64,000 nt of DNA from Rhodospirillaceae bacterium (GTDB lineage Bacteria > Pseudomonadota > Alphaproteobacteria > Bin65), in NCBI GenBank assembly GCA_026709535.1, contig JAPOST010000169.1, positions 1-64,000 on the forward strand. Reading direction: 5' to 3'. Of the stretch, positions 5,844-19,506 are shown in pieces. Below the pieces are notes generated by a model. It ran no database searches and was not told where the DNA came from. It saw only the letters and a program-made list of their open reading frames with translations. Position 1 is the stretch's first letter, and each line of letters starts with the position of its first letter. The position numbers and the translations under genes were made by a program.

Positions 5844-6830
5844 GTGATCGACGGCCTGCAGTATTGCCGCTGGTCAGAAGCGATCTTCCGCCAGTTCCGA
5901 AGCGGCGGCGTGGACGCAGTTCACGCCACGGTTGTCTACCATGAAGACTATTCCGGTACTCTGGCGCGACTGGACGAGTGGGACGACCTTTTCTCGTTAT
6001 TTGATCGCCATATCGTCCATGGTCGCATCTCAACCGATATTCTCGCTTCCCGGCAGGCGGGAAAGACGGCCGTATTTTTCGGCATGCAGAATTGCAGGCC
6101 GGTAGAAGACGACCTGTCCCGGATAGAAGACCTTTACGACCGTGGGATTCGTTTCATGCAGCTCTCCTATAACAAGGCATGTTCGCTGGCGACCGGTTGG
6201 TTCGACGAGGAACGGGACACAGGCGTTACCTTAAAGGGTCGGGAGGCGATCGCCGAGATGAATCGCGTCGGCATGGTTGTCGACATGTCCCATTCCGCCG
6301 AGCGCTCGACGCTGGAGGCGATGGAAGCATCGACCCGCCCCATCGCCATATCTCACGCCAATCCGCGCACTTGGCGCGATACAGGTCGAAACAAGTCCGA
6401 TGATGTGTTGAAGGCGGTAGCGGACTCGGGAGGCATTCTGGGACTCAGCATTTATCCGCACCATATGAAGGAGGGCTCAATGACCACCCTGGAGCAATTT
6501 TGCGAAATGGCGGCGCGGACAGCAGATCTGATGGGCGCGGAGCGACTCGGGATCGGATCGGACCTGTGCCAGGACCAGCCTGATTCTGTAGTCCGCTGGA
6601 TGCGAAGCGGCATTCGGGAGGACGAAAACACGCCACCTCCCGAGGGCGTCAGGGATGTCCGGTTTCCGGATATGCCGTCCTGGTTCCGGTCCAACGAAGA
6701 CATTCCGGGCATCGCCCGGGGGTTGCGCGCCGTCGGCTTTTCCGATCGGGAGGTGGCCGGTATCATGGGCAATAACTGGTATCGCTTCATGACTGACGCC
6801 TTCGGGCCCGCTGTTGGCTCGACGCAATGA
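5844..6830 (+). CDS. Peptidase M19 (renal dipeptidase-like) family protein, divergent metal site
   Basis: VIDGLQYCRW, VDMSHSAERSTLEAME, IAISHANPR, GIGSDLCQDQPD. The start may lie slightly upstream of the GTG at 5844. Confidence 0.85.
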   Translation: MIDGLQYCRWSEAIFRQFRSGGVDAVHATVVYHEDYSGTLARLDEWDDLFSLFDRHIVHGRISTDILASRQAGKTAVFFGMQNCRPVEDDLSRIEDLYDRGIRFMQLSYNKACSLATGWFDEERDTGVTLKGREAIAEMNRVGMVVDMSHSAERSTLEAMEASTRPIAISHANPRTWRDTGRNKSDDVLKAVADSGGILGLSIYPHHMKEGSMTTLEQFCEMAARTADLMGAERLGIGSDLCQDQPDSVVRWMRSGIREDENTPPPEGVRDVRFPDMPSWFRSNEDIPGIARGLRAVGFSDREVAGIMGNNWYRFMTDAFGPAVGSTQ

Positions 6831-8541
6831 CAGGGTCGACAAAACGTCCATCGGGGATCGTTTCCTGGCCGACAACATGATCTTGCGGTCTCCGGACACC
6901 GTACTTCGGCTGAACCGTCTGGGGGCGTTTCACCAGACGCGGCTGAGCTTCATCCGCGCAATGCTTCGCCACGTGGAGGCGGCCGGATATGTGTTTGATT
7001 ATAGCCATTGGGCCATAGACAGGGATGGTGTAGGAGATGCGGTTCTGACGGCGCGGGGAAACGGCCAGATCTATTCGCTGGTCTGCTTTGCCCATGATCT
7101 GGCACCTGCGATGCGGACCGACCGTGTCATTGCCGAAGCATGGGACGCCACGTACACCCTTTTTGACGGGATTCCTGATGCCCGTGAGATGGCCCGGCTG
7201 CGGGAGAACACACCGCGGCAGGAAGCAGGACGCTATGTTCACACCGATTTGATCCTCTCGCGCACCAACAAGAGCGCCCGGTTGTTCGATGATGTGGTTG
7301 AGTGCCTGGCCAAGGGGCGGCAACCGGATGCCGCACGATTGGATGACGTCGGGTACGTCATGCGGACTACCGCGGTATACGGCAACGGCAAGTTCGGTAT
7401 TGCCGACCGATGCCGATATGCCGTCCGAGATGGGTGGGGCGGACCCTTTCGGCTGGAAATGCTGACGGTCTGGATGATCCGTCAGTTCGTGGCCGACCTG
7501 ATTGATCACATGGCCAAGGCGAAGGGCGGCCGCAACGCCGTCTCGCTGGAAAAGGTCCTGCGCCGGCGCTTGGGGCTGGGCAACTCGACCGGACTTGGGC
7601 TGGGACCTTTTATCGTCAATCATCCCGCCTTGTTCGCAAGGTGGGTCGAATGCCGGGAAATTGCGCTGGCGTTGGTCTGCGCGCAACGCGATGCAACGCC
7701 GGATGCCTGGCAAATGTTCAGGGATTGGATTTACCGCGCCGAGAGGGATGTTGCCGGTTGGCTGGTTCCCGATGCACTTCAATCGAAGAAGATTGCCGCG
7801 CTCCGAGAGGATTTGTCTGTTCTTGCGCAGCGGGTTGCCGCAATGCCTCACGATCACGCCTTTCCCTGGTCCGAGATCTGTTCCTGGGCGGCCGATAACA
7901 TGAGCCTTGATGGCCAGGAGCTCGTTGTTTCGCTGGTCATTGAACCACATGGCGATCTCGTCGACCATCTGGCTGACGAAATGGCGGTGGATACGGAGCA
8001 TGATCGCTGGTTCGACCCTTCGATGTCGGTTCTGCAGGCGCGCAGGACGATCGAGGATCACTTTGCCTGGGCGCTGAAGACGGACTACGCGAGGCCGGCA
8101 GCGCAAGCGCGGTTCTGGTACGTCTCGTCCAATAAGCTGGAGCCGCGCCTTGGCGAGCGATGGGAAGAGCCCGGCGCCGAACTGGAACTTCCACTGGCGG
8201 TCGGGCGGGACATTGCGGCCTGCCATGACGATCTTCGGAATTGTGACGATGATGAACTCGTTTCAGATTTCCTGCGCCGACATTCTCAGCATCGTCATGT
8301 TCTTCGCCGATTGCGAAACCCGCTGGCGCACCAGTTCGGACACATCCGAGACAACTTGATTGGTACCGATCTCCTGCCGCTCGACATGCTTCGGTGCAAG
8401 CTTGCCTTCTTTGGCGCTACGAGGTTCGACCCGAAGTCGGACCGCTGGCTGCGAATCAACATGTTTCGCAATGCGCCCTATCCCGATGAGGTTGGCGAAG
8501 GTCCGTTGGATGACTGGATTTTCCCGCGATCGGACGCGTGA
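6814..8541 (+). CDS. Uncharacterised protein (~575 aa)
   Basis: Long ORF (TTG start as given; the ATG at 6877 is an alternative) in a tight same-strand array overlapping the M19 gene; no family recognised. Confidence 0.75.
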   Translation: MARRNDRVDKTSIGDRFLADNMILRSPDTVLRLNRLGAFHQTRLSFIRAMLRHVEAAGYVFDYSHWAIDRDGVGDAVLTARGNGQIYSLVCFAHDLAPAMRTDRVIAEAWDATYTLFDGIPDAREMARLRENTPRQEAGRYVHTDLILSRTNKSARLFDDVVECLAKGRQPDAARLDDVGYVMRTTAVYGNGKFGIADRCRYAVRDGWGGPFRLEMLTVWMIRQFVADLIDHMAKAKGGRNAVSLEKVLRRRLGLGNSTGLGLGPFIVNHPALFARWVECREIALALVCAQRDATPDAWQMFRDWIYRAERDVAGWLVPDALQSKKIAALREDLSVLAQRVAAMPHDHAFPWSEICSWAADNMSLDGQELVVSLVIEPHGDLVDHLADEMAVDTEHDRWFDPSMSVLQARRTIEDHFAWALKTDYARPAAQARFWYVSSNKLEPRLGERWEEPGAELELPLAVGRDIAACHDDLRNCDDDELVSDFLRRHSQHRHVLRRLRNPLAHQFGHIRDNLIGTDLLPLDMLRCKLAFFGATRFDPKSDRWLRINMFRNAPYPDEVGEGPLDDWIFPRSDA

Positions 8542-8545
8542 GCCT

Positions 8546-9214
8546 TTGCTGTGTTCCCGTAATGAAATTAATGGTCTGGCCATGAAAGCGGCACGTGGCG
8601 CGGGACTGCCTTGGGGTCTTGCCGAAGAAGCCGGTTGGGCAGCGTGCTGGCTCGAATCACGCAGGTTGGGCGGCATGTCCGCGTTGGCCAGTAACCTTGA
8701 AGCGTTGGCTTCGGAAGACTGGAGTCTGGATTTTCCGGAGCCGTCTGCAGGTGAATGGCGTGCAGTATCCGGGATAACCGACGGGCTGCTCGCTGGCGTC
8801 ACGCTGGCCGATCGGGCTGGTCTTGATTTGAACCCATCCGTCAGTATCCTTGTCTTGCGCAAGGTCAGATGGCCGATCCTGATGGTGCCGTTTCTCGCGG
8901 AAGCTGTCTGCCCTCGCCATGTTGCCTTGGAACTTCAAGTAGAGGAACACACCGTGTCGGTCGGGATCTTTCCCCATGGCGTTGACCGGGATGTCGAAAT
9001 CCTGAAACACAAGAGCCGATCCGGCGCCGTTTTTCTGGAGGCGCGGGATCTGGATAAGGGCAACCGGGCAGTTCTGGAGCTTGACGGCAGCATTCCGATT
9101 GATCAAGACGCTTATGCAAGACTGGAGTACTGGGCGCACAAGACTTGCGTGCCGGAAAGTGCCGAGTCCCGTCAGAAAGGTGCCGGCGGCGGCGAGTTGA
9201 TTGAGACGGATTGA
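8546..9214 (+). CDS. DUF3726-like protein
   Basis: SRNEINGLAMKAARGAGLPWGLAEEAG resembles the N-terminus of DUF3726 proteins; directly precedes the Ldh gene. Start uncertain (TTG 8546 or ATG 8582). Confidence 0.65.
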   Translation: MLCSRNEINGLAMKAARGAGLPWGLAEEAGWAACWLESRRLGGMSALASNLEALASEDWSLDFPEPSAGEWRAVSGITDGLLAGVTLADRAGLDLNPSVSILVLRKVRWPILMVPFLAEAVCPRHVALELQVEEHTVSVGIFPHGVDRDVEILKHKSRSGAVFLEARDLDKGNRAVLELDGSIPIDQDAYARLEYWAHKTCVPESAESRQKGAGGGELIETD

Positions 9215-9227
9215 CGGGAAGAAGGAC

Positions 9228-10244
9228 ATGGCCGCTGCGGAAACTGTCGCAATGACGACGGAAGAAATCGAAGACCTCGCCTTTCGTGCCTTGCAGAACG
9301 CCGGCGCCAGCGAGGCAAACGCCCGGTCGGTCGCGCGATCCTCGGCGGCGGCACACGCTGACGGCGCTGCCTCCCACGGCCTGCCCTATGTTCCGATCTA
9401 TTGCGAGCACTTGCAGTGCGGCAAGGTGAGGGGACATGCAGCCCTGGCAATCAACCGCATGAAACCGTCGGTATTGGTCGCCGATGCCGGAAACGGCTTC
9501 GCTCATCCTGCCATTGACGCCGGTTTCGAGAGGTTGGTGCCGCTGGCGAAGGAACAGGGTATTGCCTGTCTGGCCATCCGCAACTCCTACAATTGCGGTG
9601 TCTTGGGATGGCATACGCTTCGGCTCGCGCAACGGGGGTTGATGGCGATGGGTTTCACCAACGCACCCGCGTCGATGGCGCCGGTCGGCGGCGTGCAGAA
9701 GGTGGTGGGCACCAATCCGTTCAGCGTCGCGGCGCCGGACGGGAAGGGCGAAGCACACATCCTGATCGACCAGAGCGCCAGCGTGATCGCACGCAGCGAA
9801 ATCATGCAGTACGCACGCCGCGGCGACCCGCTTCCAGAGGGATGGGCTCTGGATGGCGATGGCCGGCCCACGACAGATCCGGATGCGGCCCTGAGAGGCA
9901 CGATGGTTCCTTGCGGCGGCTACAAGGGCTTCGGGGTGGCCCTGATGGTGGAATTGCTGGCGGCCGCCGCCGCAGGCGCCACGCTCGGGAAGGACGCCAG
10001 CCCGTTCTCCGGCCCGGTTGGCGGTCCTCCTGCGACTGGGCAGTTCTTCATTGCCATTGATATTGATACAACCTCTGGCGGCACGTTCCAGGGCCGTGCG
10101 GAAGAGTTGGTGGCCGCCATCTCCAGGCAACCCGGCGCCCGAGTCCACGGCACGGGACGGAAGGCGGCGCGCGCGCGCGCCGCCGCAGAGGCAATGCAGG
10201 TAGATTGCGCCATCGTCGAAAAGGTCAGGGCGCTTGCCGACTGA
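9228..10244 (+). CDS. Ldh-family (malate/L-lactate/ureidoglycolate dehydrogenase type) oxidoreductase
   Basis: ASEANARSVARSSAAAHADGAASHGL, NSYNCGVLGWHTLRLAQRGLMAMGFTNAPASMAPVGG, GTNPFSVAAPDG, GGYKGFGVALMVELLAA. Confidence 0.92.
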   Translation: MAAAETVAMTTEEIEDLAFRALQNAGASEANARSVARSSAAAHADGAASHGLPYVPIYCEHLQCGKVRGHAALAINRMKPSVLVADAGNGFAHPAIDAGFERLVPLAKEQGIACLAIRNSYNCGVLGWHTLRLAQRGLMAMGFTNAPASMAPVGGVQKVVGTNPFSVAAPDGKGEAHILIDQSASVIARSEIMQYARRGDPLPEGWALDGDGRPTTDPDAALRGTMVPCGGYKGFGVALMVELLAAAAAGATLGKDASPFSGPVGGPPATGQFFIAIDIDTTSGGTFQGRAEELVAAISRQPGARVHGTGRKAARARAAAEAMQVDCAIVEKVRALAD

Positions 10245-10272
10245 CAGTCACACAGTTTCAGGGTCAGGAAAG

Positions 10273-11376
10273 ATGAGCACGACTTCCAGCATCCGCGACG
10301 TCGCGATGAAAGGTGCCGGGTACTATTCCAGGGCGACGACCGGCGCCAAGGACGTTATCGACAATGCCACGCCGATGGTCCTGGATGCTGCGGCCGCGCT
10401 GCCCATCCCGTCAGACGGGCGCCCGGTCACCGTCGCAGACATAGGCTGCGCTGATGGCGGTACGTCGCTGGCGATGATCGCCAGGGTGTTGCGGACACTT
10501 CGGGAAAGGGCCCCCGGCGTCCCGATCCAGATGGTCTACACGGACTTGCCGCGCAACGACTTCAGCCAGGTTTTCCAGCACATCCACGGCCTGACGGATG
10601 TGGAGAGCGCGCTGCTCGACATTCCGGATACTTATTTCTTTGCCAGCGGCACGTCGTTTCATCAGAATATCTTTCCGCCGAACAGCCTTCACTTGGGCTT
10701 CTCCGCGACGGCTTCCCATTACATCAGCGAAAAGCCTTGCGCGATATCCGACCATGTTCACATGGTGGGGGCTTCCGGAGATGAACGTGCAGCCTACGAA
10801 GCGCAAGGCGCCCGGGACTGGGAGACCATGTTGCTGCAACGGTCGAAAGAGTTGGTGCGCGGTGGACATCTGGCCTTGTTCAATTTCGGAATCGACGAAG
10901 AGGGTCGCTACCTGGGGAATACGGGAGGCGTCAGTATGTTCAATATTTTCAATGAATTATGGCGTGATCTTGTTGATCGGGGCGTGATCACCGATGACGA
11001 ATACCGAGAAACAAACTTTGCCCAGTGCTATCGTACGGTCGCGCAATTCTGTGCGCCGCTGAATGACCGGTCAAATCCGGTCTACAAGGCCGGATTGCGT
11101 CTGAAGCACGTTGAAACGCGGGTGGTCCGATGTCCGTTCGAGCGCGATTTTGCCGATCACCGCGATCCGGACAGGTTTGCCGTGGCATATATCCCGACGC
11201 TCCGGTCATGGAGCGAACATACCTTCGTCGCCGGCCTGTCGGCCGACCGGTCTCCGACCGAAAAGCAGGAGATTGTCGACCGGTTCTACGACGCCTTCGA
11301 GGATCGGGTGCGTGACAATCCGGAAGGCCACGCCATGGACTATGTCCATACCTATCTGATTTGCGAGAAGGTCTAG
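10273..11376 (+). CDS. SABATH-type SAM-dependent carboxyl methyltransferase
   Basis: GYYSRATTGAKDVIDNATPMVLDAA, VTVADIGCADGGTS, IQMVYTDLPRNDFSQVFQHI, NIFPPNSLHLGFSATASHYISEKP follow the order of the plant SABATH (Methyltransf_7) motifs. Confidence 0.85.
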   Translation: MSTTSSIRDVAMKGAGYYSRATTGAKDVIDNATPMVLDAAAALPIPSDGRPVTVADIGCADGGTSLAMIARVLRTLRERAPGVPIQMVYTDLPRNDFSQVFQHIHGLTDVESALLDIPDTYFFASGTSFHQNIFPPNSLHLGFSATASHYISEKPCAISDHVHMVGASGDERAAYEAQGARDWETMLLQRSKELVRGGHLALFNFGIDEEGRYLGNTGGVSMFNIFNELWRDLVDRGVITDDEYRETNFAQCYRTVAQFCAPLNDRSNPVYKAGLRLKHVETRVVRCPFERDFADHRDPDRFAVAYIPTLRSWSEHTFVAGLSADRSPTEKQEIVDRFYDAFEDRVRDNPEGHAMDYVHTYLICEKV

Positions 11377-11392
11377 TAGCGGTCTGACGGGT

Positions 11393-13147
11393 TCATGGCG
11401 CCATCAGGCCCAATTCGCAGGCCTTGATCTGCAAGGCCAGATATTTCGAGTAAATCCGACACTGGGCAAGGCTGCCGGCGATAAACCACAAGCCCTGCTG
11501 TCTGGTCCGGACAAACATGTTGCGCAGTTCCTGCTCGTCGCCAAACCCCCAGATCGGCCCGACCCGATCTGCCACGACATCGCCGAAAAGCCGCCGTATC
11601 AGGACGTCCTGGCCATGATAGCCGGTCGCCAGCACGACCAGGTCTGCGTCGACGGTACGGCCGTCATTCAGGCGAATTCCATCCGGGGTAAAGCCCCTGA
11701 CATCGTCATTCTGGACCAGGGCGATTGATCCGTCAGCGATCAGGTCCGAACACCCTACGTTGAAATAATAGCCACCGCCGCGGGTCAGATACTTCATCTG
11801 CCATCCGGTGTCGTCTTCGCCGAAATCCAGCCGAAAGCCAGCCGCTTCCAGTCGATCCAGAAGGGGTTTGTCCTGCCTTCTGGCATCTTCGGTCAGCAAC
11901 TGGTGGGTTCGGCGCTGGAGAGGCAGCGGCATCGAGATGGTGATCAGATCGCAATCCTCCAGCGGCAGACCGGACCAGTAGAGCGCGTAGGGCAGTTGGG
12001 CGCTGGGTTCGACCTGGACCACCAAGGTCGGTCTGCGTTGCACCATCGTGACGCGAGCACCGGCTGACCAAAGGTCCTGCGCAATGTCATGGCCACTGTT
12101 GCCGGTTCCGAAAACGATCGCCCGCTTGCCGCGCCAGTCCTCTCCGTCGGTGTATTCGCTGGCGTGCAGGACTGGTCCCTTGAACACGTCGAGGCCGACC
12201 ATGTCCGGGCAAAACGGAATGCCGCTGACGCCGGTGGCCATCACGACGTGACGAGGTTTCAGTAATCGGGAATATCCATTTTTCACGACTGTGGCGTTCC
12301 ACCGCCCCGCTGCGTCGTCGTATGTTCCGCCTTCAAAGGCGGTTTCGGTCCAGACATTCAGTTCCATCGCCTCGGCATAGGCTTCAAACCAGTTCGCCAG
12401 CTTGTCCTTCGGGATGTACGCTGGCCAGTTCGGCGGGAACGGCATGTAGGGTAGGTGATTTGCCTGGGTCTTGTTGTGCAGCGTCAGCGCGTGATATCGT
12501 TTGCGCCAGTTGTCGCCAATGCGTTCATGCCGGTCGACGACCAGCGTATCGACGCCGAGCTGGACCAGCCGTGCTGCGATTGCGAGGCCAGCCTGTCCGC
12601 AACCGACCACCAGGACGTTCGGATTGCGATCGGCAAATGCGGCGCTGTCCCGGCGTTGATCCAGCCAGTTCGGACCCCGGAAATCCCGCGCGTTGCTGGC
12701 ACCGGTGGGTCGGGTTTCGTTCAGAGGCTCTTCATGGCCCGAGATCTGGTTCAGTGCCGTCAGCAGGGTCCACGCCTTCATCGTACCGTCAGCAGCCGGT
12801 TTCAGACGCAGCACGCCCTCGCACGATCCCCTGGCGGACGTGAAGATGAAAATGGCTTCGAGGACGTCTTCGCCGGCACGGGAAACCGGGCCCGCTGCGA
12901 CTCGGTCCGACGGCTGAGCAAAGGCCGCTGGTCGGGTTTCCGCCAGACAGGCCGCCAGCGCCGTGGTTACTGCCGAGACCCCCGAGAACGTGCGGATTTG
13001 CCAATCTCCTGCCAGCACGTCGCGCCAGTGGCAATCCTCCAGAAACAGGCCGCGCAAGGCTTCCGGCCCGCCAGCAAGCGCCGCCTCGAACTCGTCCAGC
13101 CAATCCTGAACCAATCCAGCATGATTCATGTCAGTTGCGTCAAGCAT
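11393..13147 (-). CDS. Flavin-dependent monooxygenase (FMO/BVMO-like) with N-terminal NTF2/SnoaL-like extension
   Basis: VLVVGCGQAGLAIAARLVQLGVDTLVVDRHERIGDNWRKRYHALTLHNKTQANHLPYMPFP and AIVFGTGNSGHDIAQDLWSAGARVTMVQR (two Rossmann motifs); ~150 aa N-terminal extension. Confidence 0.88.
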   Translation of the reverse strand: MLDATDMNHAGLVQDWLDEFEAALAGGPEALRGLFLEDCHWRDVLAGDWQIRTFSGVSAVTTALAACLAETRPAAFAQPSDRVAAGPVSRAGEDVLEAIFIFTSARGSCEGVLRLKPAADGTMKAWTLLTALNQISGHEEPLNETRPTGASNARDFRGPNWLDQRRDSAAFADRNPNVLVVGCGQAGLAIAARLVQLGVDTLVVDRHERIGDNWRKRYHALTLHNKTQANHLPYMPFPPNWPAYIPKDKLANWFEAYAEAMELNVWTETAFEGGTYDDAAGRWNATVVKNGYSRLLKPRHVVMATGVSGIPFCPDMVGLDVFKGPVLHASEYTDGEDWRGKRAIVFGTGNSGHDIAQDLWSAGARVTMVQRRPTLVVQVEPSAQLPYALYWSGLPLEDCDLITISMPLPLQRRTHQLLTEDARRQDKPLLDRLEAAGFRLDFGEDDTGWQMKYLTRGGGYYFNVGCSDLIADGSIALVQNDDVRGFTPDGIRLNDGRTVDADLVVLATGYHGQDVLIRRLFGDVVADRVGPIWGFGDEQELRNMFVRTRQQGLWFIAGSLAQCRIYSKYLALQIKACELGLMAP

Positions 13148-13306: not shown

Positions 13307-14323
13307 TCAAGGCGGACGTTGGGCTTTGCCGTCGTCTGGTCGCTGCTGCTCCGATTGCTCCAAGGACAGGCGGTATCGTCGGGGCGAGAAACCGTATCTC
13401 TTCTTGAATGTCGTGGCGTAGTGACCAGCATTGAAAAACCCGGTGGCGACAGCGATTTCTGTGATGGAAAGGTCGGTCTGGCGCAGCAGTTCGCGCGACT
13501 TGTCCAGCCGAAGCTGGCGGTAGATGCGCCCAGGGCTTTGCCCCAATCCGTGGCGAAACTGGCGAGTCAGCTGTCGATCACCGACGCCTGAAATCGCCGC
13601 AAGTTGCTTCAGCGATAACGGATCAGCGATGTGGTTGTCCATCGCCTCCAAGGCCGACAAGACGACGGACCGCGTCGTCCCGTAGCGCTCTGCCAGACCG
13701 GCGCGTTGGGGTCCTCCAGCCGGGCGGATGTCGGTGTGCATGAACCAGTCGCTGACCAGCCGGGCGAAGGCGCCACCATGATGCTCTGCGATCAGGGCGT
13801 GCATCATGTCCAGCGGCGCGATCCCGCCAGCGCAGGTCAAGCGGTCACGATCCATGACATACAGTCCGCGTTCGAGCATCAATCCGGGATGCCGTTCGGC
13901 CAACGCTGCGGCGTGCTCCCAGTGAACGGTCATCCGTCTGTTGTCCATGACCCCGGCATTGGCCAGTATCGCGGGCCCGCCCGAAACGCCGCCGAGGATA
14001 TGGCTGCGCCTTGCCTGCCGCCGAAGCCATCGAGAGGTTTCGGCGTGATGAAAACCGACCGGATTCCCGCCAGCGACGACAAACGCAAGGTCATAACCGT
14101 CCGGCGCTGCGGCGATTGGTTGGGTTTTGACGATGATCGCTGAGGCACTTGGGCGAGCAGGGGAGTCGCTTGTTGCAGCGTGGAACAGGTCGAGCCGATA
14201 GATTACCCTGCCGGCCAACAGGTTTGCCGCACGCAAGGGTTCGCTGACGGCGGCAAGCGACATCAGCGCGAATCCGTCGATCAAGACGACGGCAATACGG
14301 CGGGGTTGGGACTGGTTGATCAA
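13307..14323 (-). CDS. GlxA-family AraC-type regulator with DJ-1/PfpI-like N-terminal domain
   Basis: RRIAVVLIDGFALMSLAAVSEPLRAAN plus C-terminal HTH (LSLKQLAAISGVGDRQLTRQFRHGLGQSPGRIYRQLRLDKSRELLRQTDLSITEIAVATGFFNAGHYATTFKKRYGFSPRRYR). Confidence 0.92.
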   Translation of the reverse strand: MINQSQPRRIAVVLIDGFALMSLAAVSEPLRAANLLAGRVIYRLDLFHAATSDSPARPSASAIIVKTQPIAAAPDGYDLAFVVAGGNPVGFHHAETSRWLRRQARRSHILGGVSGGPAILANAGVMDNRRMTVHWEHAAALAERHPGLMLERGLYVMDRDRLTCAGGIAPLDMMHALIAEHHGGAFARLVSDWFMHTDIRPAGGPQRAGLAERYGTTRSVVLSALEAMDNHIADPLSLKQLAAISGVGDRQLTRQFRHGLGQSPGRIYRQLRLDKSRELLRQTDLSITEIAVATGFFNAGHYATTFKKRYGFSPRRYRLSLEQSEQQRPDDGKAQRPP

Positions 14324-14411: not shown

Positions 14412-15662
14412 ATGCGCTATTCGGTATTTCGCATTCTTGAACAGGGTTTGACCGGCAACCGGGGCTGGAAACCTGTCTGGCGGGAGCCTGACCCGAAACC
14501 GGAATACGACATACTCGTGATCGGCGGCGGCGGTCATGGCCTGTCCACAGCCTACTATCTGGCGACAGTCCATGGCCAGACGAATGTCGCCGTCCTTGAG
14601 AAAGGCTGGCTCGGGTCCGGTAATGTCGGCCGGAATACCACGATCATCCGGTCGAACTACCTGCTGCCGGGGAACCAACCCTTCTACGAATTCTCCATGC
14701 AACTGTGGGAAGGGCTGGAACAGGAACTGAATTTCAACGCCATGATCTCTCAGCGTGGGATCATCAACCTGTTCCACAGCGATGCTCAGCGGGACGCCGC
14801 CGTGCGTCGTGGTAATGCCATGGTCCTTTCCGGCGCGGACGCTGTGATCCTGGATCAGGACGTACTGCGCAAGAAGTGTCCTTTCCTGGATTTCGACAAT
14901 GCTCGTTTTCCCGTTCTTGGCGGGCTCTGGCAACCGCGTGGCGGCACTGCTCGACACGACGCGGTCGCATGGGGCTACGCCCGCGGCGCGGACCGGCGCG
15001 GCGTCGACATTCTTCAGAACTGCGAGGTCATCGGCTTTGATATCCGCAACGGCGCATGCCATGGAGTCGCGACGACCCGCGGGGCCATCAGGGCGAAGAA
15101 GGTGGCGGTTTGCGTCGCCGGATCTTCGGGCCAGGTCATGGAACTGGCCGGCCTGCGGCTGCCGATCGAAAGTCACGTGTTGCAAGCCTTTGTTTCCGAA
15201 GGCCTGAAACCGGTCATTCCAGGTGTCATCACCTATGGGGCCGGGCATTTCTACATCAGCCAGTCCGATAAGGGCGGCCTCGTCTTCGGCGGCGATATCG
15301 ATGGCTACAACACCTATGCCCAGCGCGGTAATCTGCCAGTCGTGGAGAATGTCTGTGAGGGCGGAATGGCCTTGATGCCGATGATCGGCAGGGCGCGGCT
15401 GTTGCGCATGTGGGGCGGCGTGGTGGACATGTCGATGGACGGATCGGCCTTCATCGACAGGACGCTGATCGACGGGCTCTTCTTCAACGGCGGCTGGTGT
15501 TATGGGGGATTCAAGGCGACGCCAGCGAGCGGCTACTGCTACGCTCATCTGATTGCCACGGGCGCTTCGCACCCGGTTGCCGCGGAAATGCGCCTCGATC
15601 GGTTCGCCAGCGGCGCCCTTGTCGACGAGCGGGGCGCTGGCGCCCAGCCCAACCTGCACTAG
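14412..15662 (+). CDS. soxB: Sarcosine oxidase subunit beta
   Basis: YDILVIGGGGHGLSTAYYLA...NVAVLEKGWLGSGNVGRNTTIIRSNYL; first gene of a four-gene array with delta, alpha and gamma subunits. Confidence 0.95.
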   Translation: MRYSVFRILEQGLTGNRGWKPVWREPDPKPEYDILVIGGGGHGLSTAYYLATVHGQTNVAVLEKGWLGSGNVGRNTTIIRSNYLLPGNQPFYEFSMQLWEGLEQELNFNAMISQRGIINLFHSDAQRDAAVRRGNAMVLSGADAVILDQDVLRKKCPFLDFDNARFPVLGGLWQPRGGTARHDAVAWGYARGADRRGVDILQNCEVIGFDIRNGACHGVATTRGAIRAKKVAVCVAGSSGQVMELAGLRLPIESHVLQAFVSEGLKPVIPGVITYGAGHFYISQSDKGGLVFGGDIDGYNTYAQRGNLPVVENVCEGGMALMPMIGRARLLRMWGGVVDMSMDGSAFIDRTLIDGLFFNGGWCYGGFKATPASGYCYAHLIATGASHPVAAEMRLDRFASGALVDERGAGAQPNLH

Positions 15663-15672
15663 CAGGGCCGAC

Positions 15673-15960
15673 ATGATCATTCCGCATCCGCTCCTTGGTC
15701 CGCGCGACGCCTCAGAGTTCGTTTATCTGGGAGATGCATCATTGATCGATCGGCCGGACCCCCGGGCCGCGGATGCGTTACAGCAGTTTCACGACTATCT
15801 GTATTTGCGAGACAATCCGGCCGGTGAACATCGGGAGTTGTGGTTTCACGAACACGGCGATCGCTCCTGGCTGGTTGTCACCCGGAATACGCTGACTCAC
15901 GAAATCACAGCCGTGGAGTTGGCGAAAAAAGTCGCTCTGGAGCGGGGGCGCGACCGATGA
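15673..15960 (+). CDS. soxD: Sarcosine oxidase subunit delta (no cysteines)
   Basis: MIIPHPLLGPRDASEFVYLGDA...NPAGEHRELWFHEHGDRSWLVVTRNTLTHEI; position between soxB and soxA. Confidence 0.88.
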   Translation: MIIPHPLLGPRDASEFVYLGDASLIDRPDPRAADALQQFHDYLYLRDNPAGEHRELWFHEHGDRSWLVVTRNTLTHEITAVELAKKVALERGRDR

Positions 15961-18905
15961 CTGGACTGGAAAGATTGCCTGGCGGTCTGGTCGATCGGAA
16001 TCGGTGCATCGCGTTCACTTTCGACGGGCATCCCTATCTGGGCTTTCCCGGCGATACGCTGGCTTCGGCGCTTCTCGCCAACGGCGTGAGGATGGTCGGG
16101 CGCAGTTTCAAGTACCATCGGCCCCGGGGTGTCTTTTCGGCGGGGTCTGAAGAGCCGAATGCTCTGGTACAGTTGCGTCGCGGCGCGTATCGCGAACCGA
16201 ATACCCGCGCAACCGTGGCGGAGCTTTTCGACGGTCTTGATGCGACCAGTCAGAACTACTGCGGATCCCTGCGTTTCGACCTGTTGGCCGTCAACGACCT
16301 TCTTGCCTCGTTTCTCGGCGCTGGTTTCTACTACAAGACCTTCATGTGGCCGCAAGCGTTGTGGGAGCGCCTGTATGAGCCGGTAATTCGTGCGTCCGCG
16401 GGACCGGGTCGTCTTTCGGGCGATACGGATCCGGATGTCTACGACAGAGGGTACCTGCATTGTGATCTGCTGGTCATCGGCTCCGGTCCCGCAGGTCTCG
16501 CCGCCGCCCTCGTTGCAGGGCGAAGCGGCGCGCGGACAATCCTCGTCGACGAGGACTTCGTGATGGGTGGTCGACTTCACGCCGAAACCCATGAAATCGA
16601 CGGACAACCGGGCGGGGCATGGGCGGGTTCTGTCGTTGCCGAGCTTGGCGCGCTGGAGAATGTCCGGCTTCTTTCCCGGACGACCGTGATCGGAGCGTAT
16701 GATCACGGCATCTACGGCGCTGTGGAACGCAAGACCGACCATCTACCGGACAGTAAGGGCAAACCCCGTCAGATTCTGTGGCGGGTCCATTCCAGGCGAG
16801 CGATCCTTTGCGCCGGCGCGATCGAGCGGCCGATCGCCTTTGGGGCCAATGACCGACCCGGGGTGATGTTGGCGGGCGCGGTGCGGACCTACGCGAACCG
16901 ATATGCCGTAGCGCCTGGCAAACGGGTGGGGGTCTTCACCAATAATGACGACGGCTGGCGCACGGCGGTCGATCTTGCCGCCAAAGGCGTCGAAATCGCT
17001 GCCGTGATCGATACCAGGGAGATGGCGCCGCCGGTTGACGTCACCAGCGTCGAGGTTCGCATGGGCGGGCGCATCACTACAACCTGGGGGCGCAAGGGCT
17101 TGAAGGCCATCACGCTCGCCACGGGCGAGAAAATCGCGATGGATTGTCTGGCGGTATCCGGTGGCTGGAATCCGGCGGTTCATCTGACCTGTCATCAGCG
17201 CGGCCGTCCTATCTGGCGAGACGACATTGCTGCCTTCGTTCCCGGCACCGGTCTTCCGGTCGGCATGGCTGTAGCGGGAAGCGTGAACGGGAGCCTGTCC
17301 TGCGGCGCGGCTTTGCGGGAAGGCCATGACGCCGCAAGCGCCATCATGCAGGATCTCGGAATTGGCCTCGCCAAGGATGCCTTGCCGGCGGCCAGCGATG
17401 AATCGGTCGCCGTCATGCCGTTCTGGCGGGTCACCGAAAGCAGGGGGCGGGCGTGGGTCGACTTGCAGAACGATGTCACCGTCAAGGATATTCAGCAAGC
17501 CCATCATGAAGGCTACCGATCTGTCGAACTGTTGAAGCGCTACACCACGCTGGGGATGGCGACTGATCAGGGCAAGACCGCCAATGTCGTGGCGCTAGCC
17601 ATCCTTGCCGAACACGGAGGGCGATCCATCGGGGATATTGGAACGACAATCTTTCGGCCGCCGTATACCCCCGTCTCGATCGCCGTCTTTGCCGGCCGGT
17701 CGCGCGGCAAGGCTTTCCGTCCGACGCGACTGACGCCGAGTCACGTGTGGGCCGAGGGGCGCGGGGGCACGTTCGTCGAAGCCAGCGGGTGGTTGCGCGC
17801 GCGATGGTATCCCGTATCCGGCGAGACCCACTGGCGGCAATCGGTGGACCGGGAAGTCAGGTTGACCCGAAGTGGTGTTGGTATCTGCGACGTCAGTACC
17901 TTGGGAAAAATCGACATTCAGGGTGAGGATTCCGGGACCTTCCTGAACAAGGTTTACGCCAACGGTTTCGCCAAATTGCCAGTTGGCAGGGTCCGGTACG
18001 GCCTTATGCTGCGGGAGGACGGTTTCGTTTACGACGACGGAACGACTGCCCGACTTGGCAAAACGCATTTCGTGATGACCACCACGACAGCCAACGACGG
18101 TCTGGTCTTCCGGAATCTGGAGTTCGCCCGCCAGTGCCTGTGGCCCGGTCTGGATGTTCATCTGGCGTCGGCGACCGAACAATGGGCGCAATTCTCCGTC
18201 GCCGGACCCCGTTCGCGCGACCTGTTGGCCAAGATCGTCGACCCGCCCTTCGATCTCGCGAACGACGCCTTTCCGCTGATGGCTTGCGGTACGGTCACCG
18301 TTTGCGGCGGCGCGCCGGGACGGCTGTTCCGAATCTCCTTTTCGGGTGAACTGGGTTACGAAATCGCCGTTCCCAGCCGCTACGGGGTATCGTTCATGGC
18401 GGCGCTGATGACGGCTGGCGAGGATTTTGATGCGGTTCCTTATGGCGTGGAAGCGCTCGGCGTCATGCGTCTCGAAAAAGGTCATGTGGCCGGGAACGAG
18501 CTGAACGGCCAGTCCACGGCGAAGATGTTGAACCTGGAACGAATGATCTCCAGGAAGAAGGACTGCATCGGCAATGTGCTGTCGCAACGCCCGGCCATGA
18601 ACCGTCAGGATGGTCTGGCGATGATGGGCTTCCGTCCATTGGATCGCAGCGTCGAACTCACGGCTGGGGCGCATTTTCTGGCAATGGATGCTGAAGACCG
18701 GATGGCGGCCGATGAAGGCTACATGACGTCCGTCGCCCATTCCCCGGAACTGGGTTACAGCATCGGCCTCGGCTTCATCATGCGCGGTCCGGAACGCGTG
18801 GGTGAAACGGTCCGAGCTTGGGATGCCGTCAACGGGAAGGACATTCCCGTCGAGATCGTGCCGCCTCATTTCGTTGATCCGCAAGGCAACCGGCTCCGTG
18901 GCTGA
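15957..18905 (+). CDS. soxA: Sarcosine oxidase subunit alpha
   Basis: ATG overlaps the soxD stop (ATGA); FTFDGHPYLGFPGDTLASALLANGVRMVGRSFKYHRPRG, FAD motif VIGSGPAGLAAALVAGRSG, GcvT-like C-terminus. Confidence 0.95.
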   Translation: MTGLERLPGGLVDRNRCIAFTFDGHPYLGFPGDTLASALLANGVRMVGRSFKYHRPRGVFSAGSEEPNALVQLRRGAYREPNTRATVAELFDGLDATSQNYCGSLRFDLLAVNDLLASFLGAGFYYKTFMWPQALWERLYEPVIRASAGPGRLSGDTDPDVYDRGYLHCDLLVIGSGPAGLAAALVAGRSGARTILVDEDFVMGGRLHAETHEIDGQPGGAWAGSVVAELGALENVRLLSRTTVIGAYDHGIYGAVERKTDHLPDSKGKPRQILWRVHSRRAILCAGAIERPIAFGANDRPGVMLAGAVRTYANRYAVAPGKRVGVFTNNDDGWRTAVDLAAKGVEIAAVIDTREMAPPVDVTSVEVRMGGRITTTWGRKGLKAITLATGEKIAMDCLAVSGGWNPAVHLTCHQRGRPIWRDDIAAFVPGTGLPVGMAVAGSVNGSLSCGAALREGHDAASAIMQDLGIGLAKDALPAASDESVAVMPFWRVTESRGRAWVDLQNDVTVKDIQQAHHEGYRSVELLKRYTTLGMATDQGKTANVVALAILAEHGGRSIGDIGTTIFRPPYTPVSIAVFAGRSRGKAFRPTRLTPSHVWAEGRGGTFVEASGWLRARWYPVSGETHWRQSVDREVRLTRSGVGICDVSTLGKIDIQGEDSGTFLNKVYANGFAKLPVGRVRYGLMLREDGFVYDDGTTARLGKTHFVMTTTTANDGLVFRNLEFARQCLWPGLDVHLASATEQWAQFSVAGPRSRDLLAKIVDPPFDLANDAFPLMACGTVTVCGGAPGRLFRISFSGELGYEIAVPSRYGVSFMAALMTAGEDFDAVPYGVEALGVMRLEKGHVAGNELNGQSTAKMLNLERMISRKKDCIGNVLSQRPAMNRQDGLAMMGFRPLDRSVELTAGAHFLAMDAEDRMAADEGYMTSVAHSPELGYSIGLGFIMRGPERVGETVRAWDAVNGKDIPVEIVPPHFVDPQGNRLRG

Positions 18906-19506
18906 CCATGCCCTGACCGCCGCGTCTCCGCTGGCCGGCTATGCCCGAACCATCGGCGATGTCCTTCTGACCGAGGTAGGCGACTACAACCTGTGTTCCG
19001 TCGCCGCGCCACTGGGCGAAGACGAGGCCTTGGTGGACAGCTTCGACGTGCCGCGACCTGCAACCGGACAATCCTCCATATCGACGGACGGAGCCACGCG
19101 GCTTCTGGGTCTGCAGCCAGATCAGATACTCATCCTGTTTCGCGCAGATGACCCGGACAGGGCCGCCGATCAAGTCGCTGCTGCGATGAAGACGGCTGCC
19201 TATGTCACGGACCAGTCAGACAGTTGGGTATTGCTGGCGCTCGAGGGTGCAGACGTATGCCCTGTCCTTGAGCGGCTGTGCATGCTCGACCTGGACGACG
19301 CCGCCTTTCCGGCGGGGGCTGTCAGCCGGACGGTCATGGAGCATTTGTCCGTAATCATTCTGCGCGAGCGAGACAACCGGTTTCTGCTTTTCAACCCGCG
19401 ATCATCGGCGCGGTCTTTCCTCCATGCTGTGGAAACTGCAGCAGAAACCGTTCTTTTGCAATCGAATGAACCGGTGTCCGTCAGACATCGTCGTGGAACT
19501 TCCTGA
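18898..19506 (+). CDS. soxG: Sarcosine oxidase subunit gamma
   Basis: Follows soxA with a short overlap (GTG start); ~200 aa with a SoxG-like C-terminus (LEGADVCPVLERLCMLDLDDAAFPAGAVSRTVMEHLSVIILRERDNRFLLFNPRSSARSFLHAVETAAE). Confidence 0.85.
   Translation: MADHALTAASPLAGYARTIGDVLLTEVGDYNLCSVAAPLGEDEALVDSFDVPRPATGQSSISTDGATRLLGLQPDQILILFRADDPDRAADQVAAAMKTAAYVTDQSDSWVLLALEGADVCPVLERLCMLDLDDAAFPAGAVSRTVMEHLSVIILRERDNRFLLFNPRSSARSFLHAVETAAETVLLQSNEPVSVRHRRGTS

Follow-up and report, generated by a model that had tools for sequence, protein, structure and literature searches.

Homarine (N-methylpicolinate) is an abundant marine metabolite and osmolyte, and homABCDER is the name given to an operon for its breakdown. 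A catabolic pathway for the compound in environmental bacteria has reportedly been described (Ferrer-Gonzalez et al., Nat Microbiol 11:1531, 2026). Homarine is consumed by Ruegeria pomeroyi (PMC12817926), and the N-methylglutamate dehydrogenase Mgd participates in homarine catabolism according to a statement in PMC13390433, which cites doi 10.1038/s41564-026-02313-7. The mgdABCD genes of R. pomeroyi code for four Sox-type subunits and lie beside the gene for an AraC-family regulator, TmaR (SPO1584-1588), an arrangement which recurs in the locus described here. A further point of comparison is DpkA of the Ldh_2 family, an imine reductase (PMC6775277). The locus is located in a 64,000-nucleotide stretch of a Rhodospirillaceae bacterium genome (GCA_026709535.1, contig JAPOST010000169.1, positions 1 to 64,000), termed the window, and encodes the following features, where u575 denotes the product of a 575 aa open reading frame (ORF):

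5844..6830, plus strand: M19-fold protein, assigned by Pfam and the alignment columns of 99 orthologs, with a GTG start that agrees with the ortholog N-termini
6877..8541, plus strand: u575, without a Pfam, NCBIfam or PDB relative; TTG 6814 opens the ORF
8546..9214, plus strand: DUF3726 protein, with a predicted truncated Ldh_2-like fold, the invariant partner of u575
9228..10244, plus strand: Ldh_2-family reductase (Pfam), best PDB match the delta1-piperideine-2-carboxylate reductase DpkA
10273..11376, plus strand: SABATH-type methyltransferase (Pfam), a lineage-specific addition to the operon
11393..13147, minus strand: FMO-like flavoprotein, convergent and judged to lie outside the operon
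13307..14323, minus strand: AraC-family regulator of GlxA/GbdR-like type, transcribed away from the Mgd genes, in a TmaR-like position
14412..15662, plus strand: probable Mgd/Sox beta-type subunit (MgdA), by TIGR01373 and clade
15676..15960 (start approximate), plus strand: probable Mgd/Sox delta-type subunit (MgdB), by PF04267
15957..18905, plus strand: probable Mgd/Sox alpha-type subunit (MgdC), in a clade linked to mgsABC-gmaS
18802..19506 (ORF limits), plus strand: probable Mgd/Sox gamma-type subunit (MgdD), with TIGR01375 below its cut-off

The ORFs and strands of the first five genes are as the first-pass annotation had given them, both in an ORF check and in Pfam searches (E-values of 2.8e-67 for Peptidase_M19, 1.1e-14 for DUF3726, 7.6e-93 for Ldh_2 and 5.4e-33 for Methyltransf_7/SABATH), and Pfam likewise confirms the minus-strand FMO-like gene. 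Alignment with orthologs places the likely starts at ATG 6877 for u575 (46 bp past the M19 gene; the encoded length is 554-575 aa by start), TTG 8546 for DUF3726 (4 bp past u575), ATG 9228 for Ldh (13 bp past DUF3726) and ATG 10273 for SABATH (28 bp past Ldh), leaving five collinear genes with gaps of 4-46 bp. A non-standard ATT start for the M19 gene was dropped, as the ortholog N-termini match GTG 5844. Upstream of the operon are gyrA and a CTP_transf-like gene, and a consensus scan found no terminator or promoter above chance. Close spacing and conservation across lineages support the earlier proposal of a single operon and suggest that the five genes are co-transcribed.

The five-gene set is a real and widely conserved bacterial operon. 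A scan of GTDB genomes revealed at least 585 u575-encoding stretches, the best 80 of which derive mostly from Roseobacter-type and other Alphaproteobacteria and also include some Gamma- and Betaproteobacteria as well as MAGs labelled Acidimicrobiales or Deltaproteobacteria. Among 385 sampled genomes of the class, u575 is present in all 43 that are positive for DUF3726, while ten genomes encode u575 without a DUF3726 at Pfam level; a divergent DUF3726-like neighbour occurs in five of the eight neighbourhoods of these that were read. The notion that the five genes might never occur together elsewhere, raised alongside the first-pass annotation, does not hold: across 125 non-redundant loci DUF3726 directly adjoins or follows u575 in 123 of the 124 that could be assessed, the M19 gene is found within 3.5 kb of u575 in 101 of 111, and 57 of 108 have an aldehyde dehydrogenase (ALDH) gene no more than 5 kb away. 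The usual order, LysR / ALDH-M19-(BCCT betaine transporter)-u575-DUF3726-Ldh, is retained across lineages and plasmids, and betaine transporters (BCCT, OpuAC) are encoded in or beside many copies. The u575 and DUF3726 proteins are also naturally fused, in an 814 aa protein (L264:8947-11391) encoded on plasmid MesoLj131a2 of Mesorhizobium sp. 131-2-1, where u575 comprises residues 15-568 and DUF3726 residues 596-814.

Several side features accompany individual copies. Also present in the MesoLj131a2 cluster are a GlxA regulator and a gene of the trimethylamine methyltransferase family. In some lineages a histone-deacetylase-like hydrolase gene occurs directly upstream of M19/u575 (L129:7959-8984, also L091, L092, L143 and L166), and in some Amylibacter-like genomes DUF3726 is followed by an enolase-superfamily (MR_MLE) gene (L127:12088-13317; L151) that may code for a racemase or dehydratase step. 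In each of two genomes (G252 and G154) there is an additional, divergent u575 gene flanked by a DUF3726-like gene of its own (L229:9910-11592 and L230:9842-11494), while in another (G077:C43:756-2305) u575 is in pieces with several stop codons, apparently a decaying copy.

The window version is a variant of this operon that has gained SABATH and contains no ALDH, LysR or transporter gene; a search of the window's genus at a strict cut-off revealed no close ortholog of the ALDH. Most other members of this genus have a demethylase resembling DMGDH near or just upstream of M19, where the window has Mgd downstream instead. Such a protein (DAO+FAO_M+GCV_T), absent in the window, is encoded directly upstream of M19 at L053:12944-15895, L086 and L087. 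In a sister genus an OpuA-type transporter follows SABATH, and the transporters near the operons vary between BCCT, OpuA and branched-chain-type ABC systems. A divergent u575-DUF3726-M19 triad, with u575 about 26% identical, an IclR regulator and other transporters, is found on pSymB of S. meliloti (L266:8947-12393) and on a plasmid of Variovorax SRS16 (L269:7941-11437). Of 103 loci that could be assessed, 14 encode RidA, an enamine/imine deaminase, and an Ldh gene is present in none of these 14 as compared to 40 of the 89 loci without RidA (Fisher p 7e-4, kinship ignored). This mutual exclusion suggests that both enzymes act on one imine or enamine intermediate. Loci where RidA is encoded within or next to the operon, in every case without Ldh_2, are L100:7978-8352, L090:10730-11131 and a dozen more.

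Searches of Pfam, NCBIfam and the PDB returned only noise for u575. Its AlphaFold model (pLDDT 87.8, pTM 0.90) has no fold match in the PDB, the best E-value being 0.83, and on this model u575 appears to be a protein of novel fold. The top structural matches of the DUF3726 model (pLDDT 88, pTM 0.85) are all Ldh_2 enzymes, with a Foldseek probability of 1.00, an E-value of 3.5e-4 and a TM-score of approximately 0.55 by query length; hhalign also pairs DUF3726 with Ldh_2 in matching N-terminal register (E 9e-4), at a probability of just 23%. The model has the fold of the Ldh_2 family, which includes DpkA and the ureidoglycolate and malate dehydrogenases and of which the Ldh gene is a regular operon member, whereas DUF3726 falls short of these enzymes by about 120 aa, shows no conserved His in the 32 sequences compared, so that the catalytic His of the SHG motif is missing, and terminates in the conserved tail GAGAGLxDND. 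We therefore predict DUF3726 to be a truncated, remodelled Ldh_2-type fold without the catalytic His. A search of the accessible literature turned up no paper on DUF3726. Together, u575 and DUF3726 may work as one two-subunit enzyme.

The M19-fold protein retains His150, His171 and Asp240, while all 99 orthologs have D-x-L-Q in the place of the HxD motif and Gln in that of the bridging Glu. It shares its fold, two His ligands and catalytic Asp with the M19 membrane dipeptidases and with 2i5g, its nearest structure, and with the latter also an altered N-terminus; the HxD pair and bridging Glu of the membrane dipeptidases are, however, substituted throughout the operon orthologs. By this residue test one metal site is predicted to be missing and the protein is probably not a dipeptidase. 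We take 2i5g to be Pseudomonas PA5396, an amidohydrolase of the dimethylglycine dgcAB locus; no papers on PA5396/PA5397 turned up in the accessible literature. The Ldh protein (9228-10244) belongs to the Ldh_2 fold family and keeps the catalytic SHG and GGYKG motifs, with DpkA as its closest PDB match.

Downstream of the operon are four adjacent Sox-type subunit genes, for which the name sarcosine oxidase was set aside on tree placement. In a tree of SoxA-type subunits the window alpha subunit falls, with a clade support of 1.00, among enzymes linked to mgsABC-gmaS (L175, L193, L252 and L254; in L175 the identities of Mgs and GmaS were confirmed with Pfam/NCBIfam) and enzymes adjoining u575 (L044/L174, L110, L122, L165 and L167), in a different clade from its own-genome paralog L209; the tree includes no characterised sarcosine oxidase as an anchor. 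On the basis of this clade and of gene context, the four genes are probably mgdABCD, coding for an N-methylglutamate dehydrogenase. Mgd genes adjoin the u575 operon in several other lineages, and annotation places the complete operon of Phaeobacter inhibens and of Roseateles in a single island with LysR, an AraC-type regulator and the Sox/Mgd genes, joined in Roseateles by purU and folD. SoxA-type genes were observed nine times within the u575 loci against approximately 1.3 expected (Poisson p ~1e-5, kinship ignored), with no such gene nearby in more than 90% of the loci. GmaS above cut-off is missing in the window's own genome and in nine of the 13 named u575 genomes, while the own genome and 12 of the 13 encode a SoxA-type enzyme placed within the Mgd clade or assigned there by identity (52-68%). 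Genomes with an Mgd-clade enzyme and no GmaS would need a source of N-methylglutamate other than methylamine. The prediction that RidA-type genomes lack Mgd was only partly borne out, with an Mgd-clade enzyme present in 10 of 16 such genomes as compared to 27 of 28 Ldh-type genomes (Fisher p 0.006, kinship ignored).

The Mgd clade link, together with the report that Mgd takes part in homarine catabolism, leads us to consider it fairly probable that the operon serves the catabolism of homarine or a close relative. A betaine transporter (BCCT or OpuA-type ABC, neither of which is encoded in the window copy) would import a betaine-like, N-methylated nitrogen heterocycle, most likely homarine, after which u575/DUF3726 and the M19-fold protein would activate and open the ring to yield a linear N-methyl imine or enamine. 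The Ldh_2 reductase would convert the imine to an N-methyl amino acid, a step which in other lineages may be replaced by hydrolysis of the imine by RidA. The remaining aldehyde would then be oxidised to N-methylglutamate by the ALDH, found in about half of the copies and not in that of the window, and the adjacent MgdABCD would produce glutamate and a folate-bound one-carbon unit. The operon ALDH is closest to the 2,5-dioxovalerate and alpha-ketoglutaric semialdehyde dehydrogenase models, below their cut-offs, and the betaine transporters, DpkA-like reductase, alpha-ketoglutaric-semialdehyde-type ALDH and Mgd are compatible with an order of uptake, ring opening, reduction, oxidation and N-demethylation. 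For the reaction of u575, DUF3726 and M19 we know of no citable precedent. Counting against homarine are the lack of ALDH and transporter genes in the window copy and of an Mgd-clade enzyme in 6 of the 16 RidA-type genomes, Mgd thus not being universal, as well as the large majority of u575 loci that have no SoxA-type gene in their vicinity.

It is possible, though rather unlikely, that the same operon type acts on another N-methylated or imino substrate, such as trigonelline, hygric acid/stachydrine or N-methylpipecolate, or on a range of these, with Mgd- or DMGDH-type enzymes performing the last demethylation. The variation in transporter types, the 15 loci, some of them in the window's genus, that have a DMGDH-like demethylase close to u575, and the divergent triad with its other transporters in Sinorhizobium and Variovorax are consistent with this, while the Mgd evidence points to N-methylglutamate as the end product. 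Homarine or substitute, the earlier suggestion that the operon handles redox of an N-methylated or imino amino-acid-like compound gains from the betaine transporters, the DpkA-like reductase, the occurrence of RidA in place of Ldh and the adjacent Mgd.

The SABATH and FMO genes, which a reading along the lines of the first-pass annotation would count as core members of an undescribed redox and methyl-ester pathway, fare differently. The SABATH protein (PF03492 at 115 bits, cut-off 29.8) is encoded 28 bp from Ldh and retained in the window's genus and one sister genus, and its closest structure is a fatty-acid O-methyltransferase, i.e. a carboxyl O-methyltransferase; it is, however, encoded in no sampled operon outside that family and missing from nearly all operon copies. 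The FMO occurs at the operon in the window only, with no counterpart at the same position in relatives, and was rejected as a pathway member for lack of conservation. Methyl-ester processing is thus unsupported and such a pathway very unlikely. The FAD domain of the FMO is preceded by an N-terminal stretch of about 170 residues that matches nothing in Pfam. About as improbable is that SABATH N-methylates picolinate to homarine, with this lineage feeding picolinate into the operon or making homarine as an osmolyte; some SABATH enzymes, the caffeine synthases among them, are N-methyltransferases (6lyh and 2efj are among the structural matches) and the gene has its place in the operon, but its nearest solved relative is the fatty-acid O-methyltransferase. 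That the genes are chance neighbours without shared function, for which only the failure to recognise a promoter or terminator speaks, is refuted by the near-invariant adjacency (123/124 loci), the perfect nesting of presence in the 385 genomes and the gene fusion.

Should the homarine assignment be true, a role can be given to the u575 family, which is found in at least 585 genomic stretches and has no Pfam entry, and a fold and a partner to DUF3726; u575 would then mark the use of homarine in genomes, from marine Alphaproteobacteria with small genomes to the plasmids of rhizobia. The triad may represent pyridinium-ring-opening chemistry, and we know of no enzyme family that covers ring opening of the type proposed. 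A tentative extension, which we regard as somewhat doubtful, is that a new class of multi-subunit enzyme, made up of the M19-like protein, u575 and DUF3726, opens N-methylated or cyclic-imine rings, with u575 contributing a new fold and DUF3726 a dead Ldh_2-type subunit. There would be two or more divergent versions of it that differ in substrate (Mgd-linked, and IclR-regulated in Sinorhizobium/Variovorax), the imine being reduced (Ldh) or hydrolysed (RidA) by lineage. New here are the lack of a PDB fold match for u575, the Ldh_2 fold without its His in DUF3726, the loss of a metal site in M19 and the exclusion between RidA and Ldh, and the novel-fold pair u575/DUF3726 is the part most worth following.

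As regards known systems, the gene combination for which the first-pass annotation knew of no characterised pathway is real, but that statement is probably out of date, as a homarine pathway with Mgd was published in 2026 to judge from the mention in PMC13390433, and the claim of an undescribed pathway is weakened. In comparison with R. pomeroyi, the window enzyme belongs to the same clade as the mgsABC-gmaS-linked enzymes, whereas the window genome has no GmaS above cut-off and its Mgd is thus probably not serving a methylamine pathway. With the homarine pathway, the window system has in common the use of Mgd, as far as PMC13390433 mentions it, and the operon type its Roseobacter-type marine hosts. 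The six conserved genes found here (LysR, ALDH, M19, u575, DUF3726 and Ldh) would fit five enzymes and a regulator, a likeness drawn at the level of gene number rather than gene by gene, while the window copy differs in having no ALDH, LysR or transporter and in the addition of SABATH.
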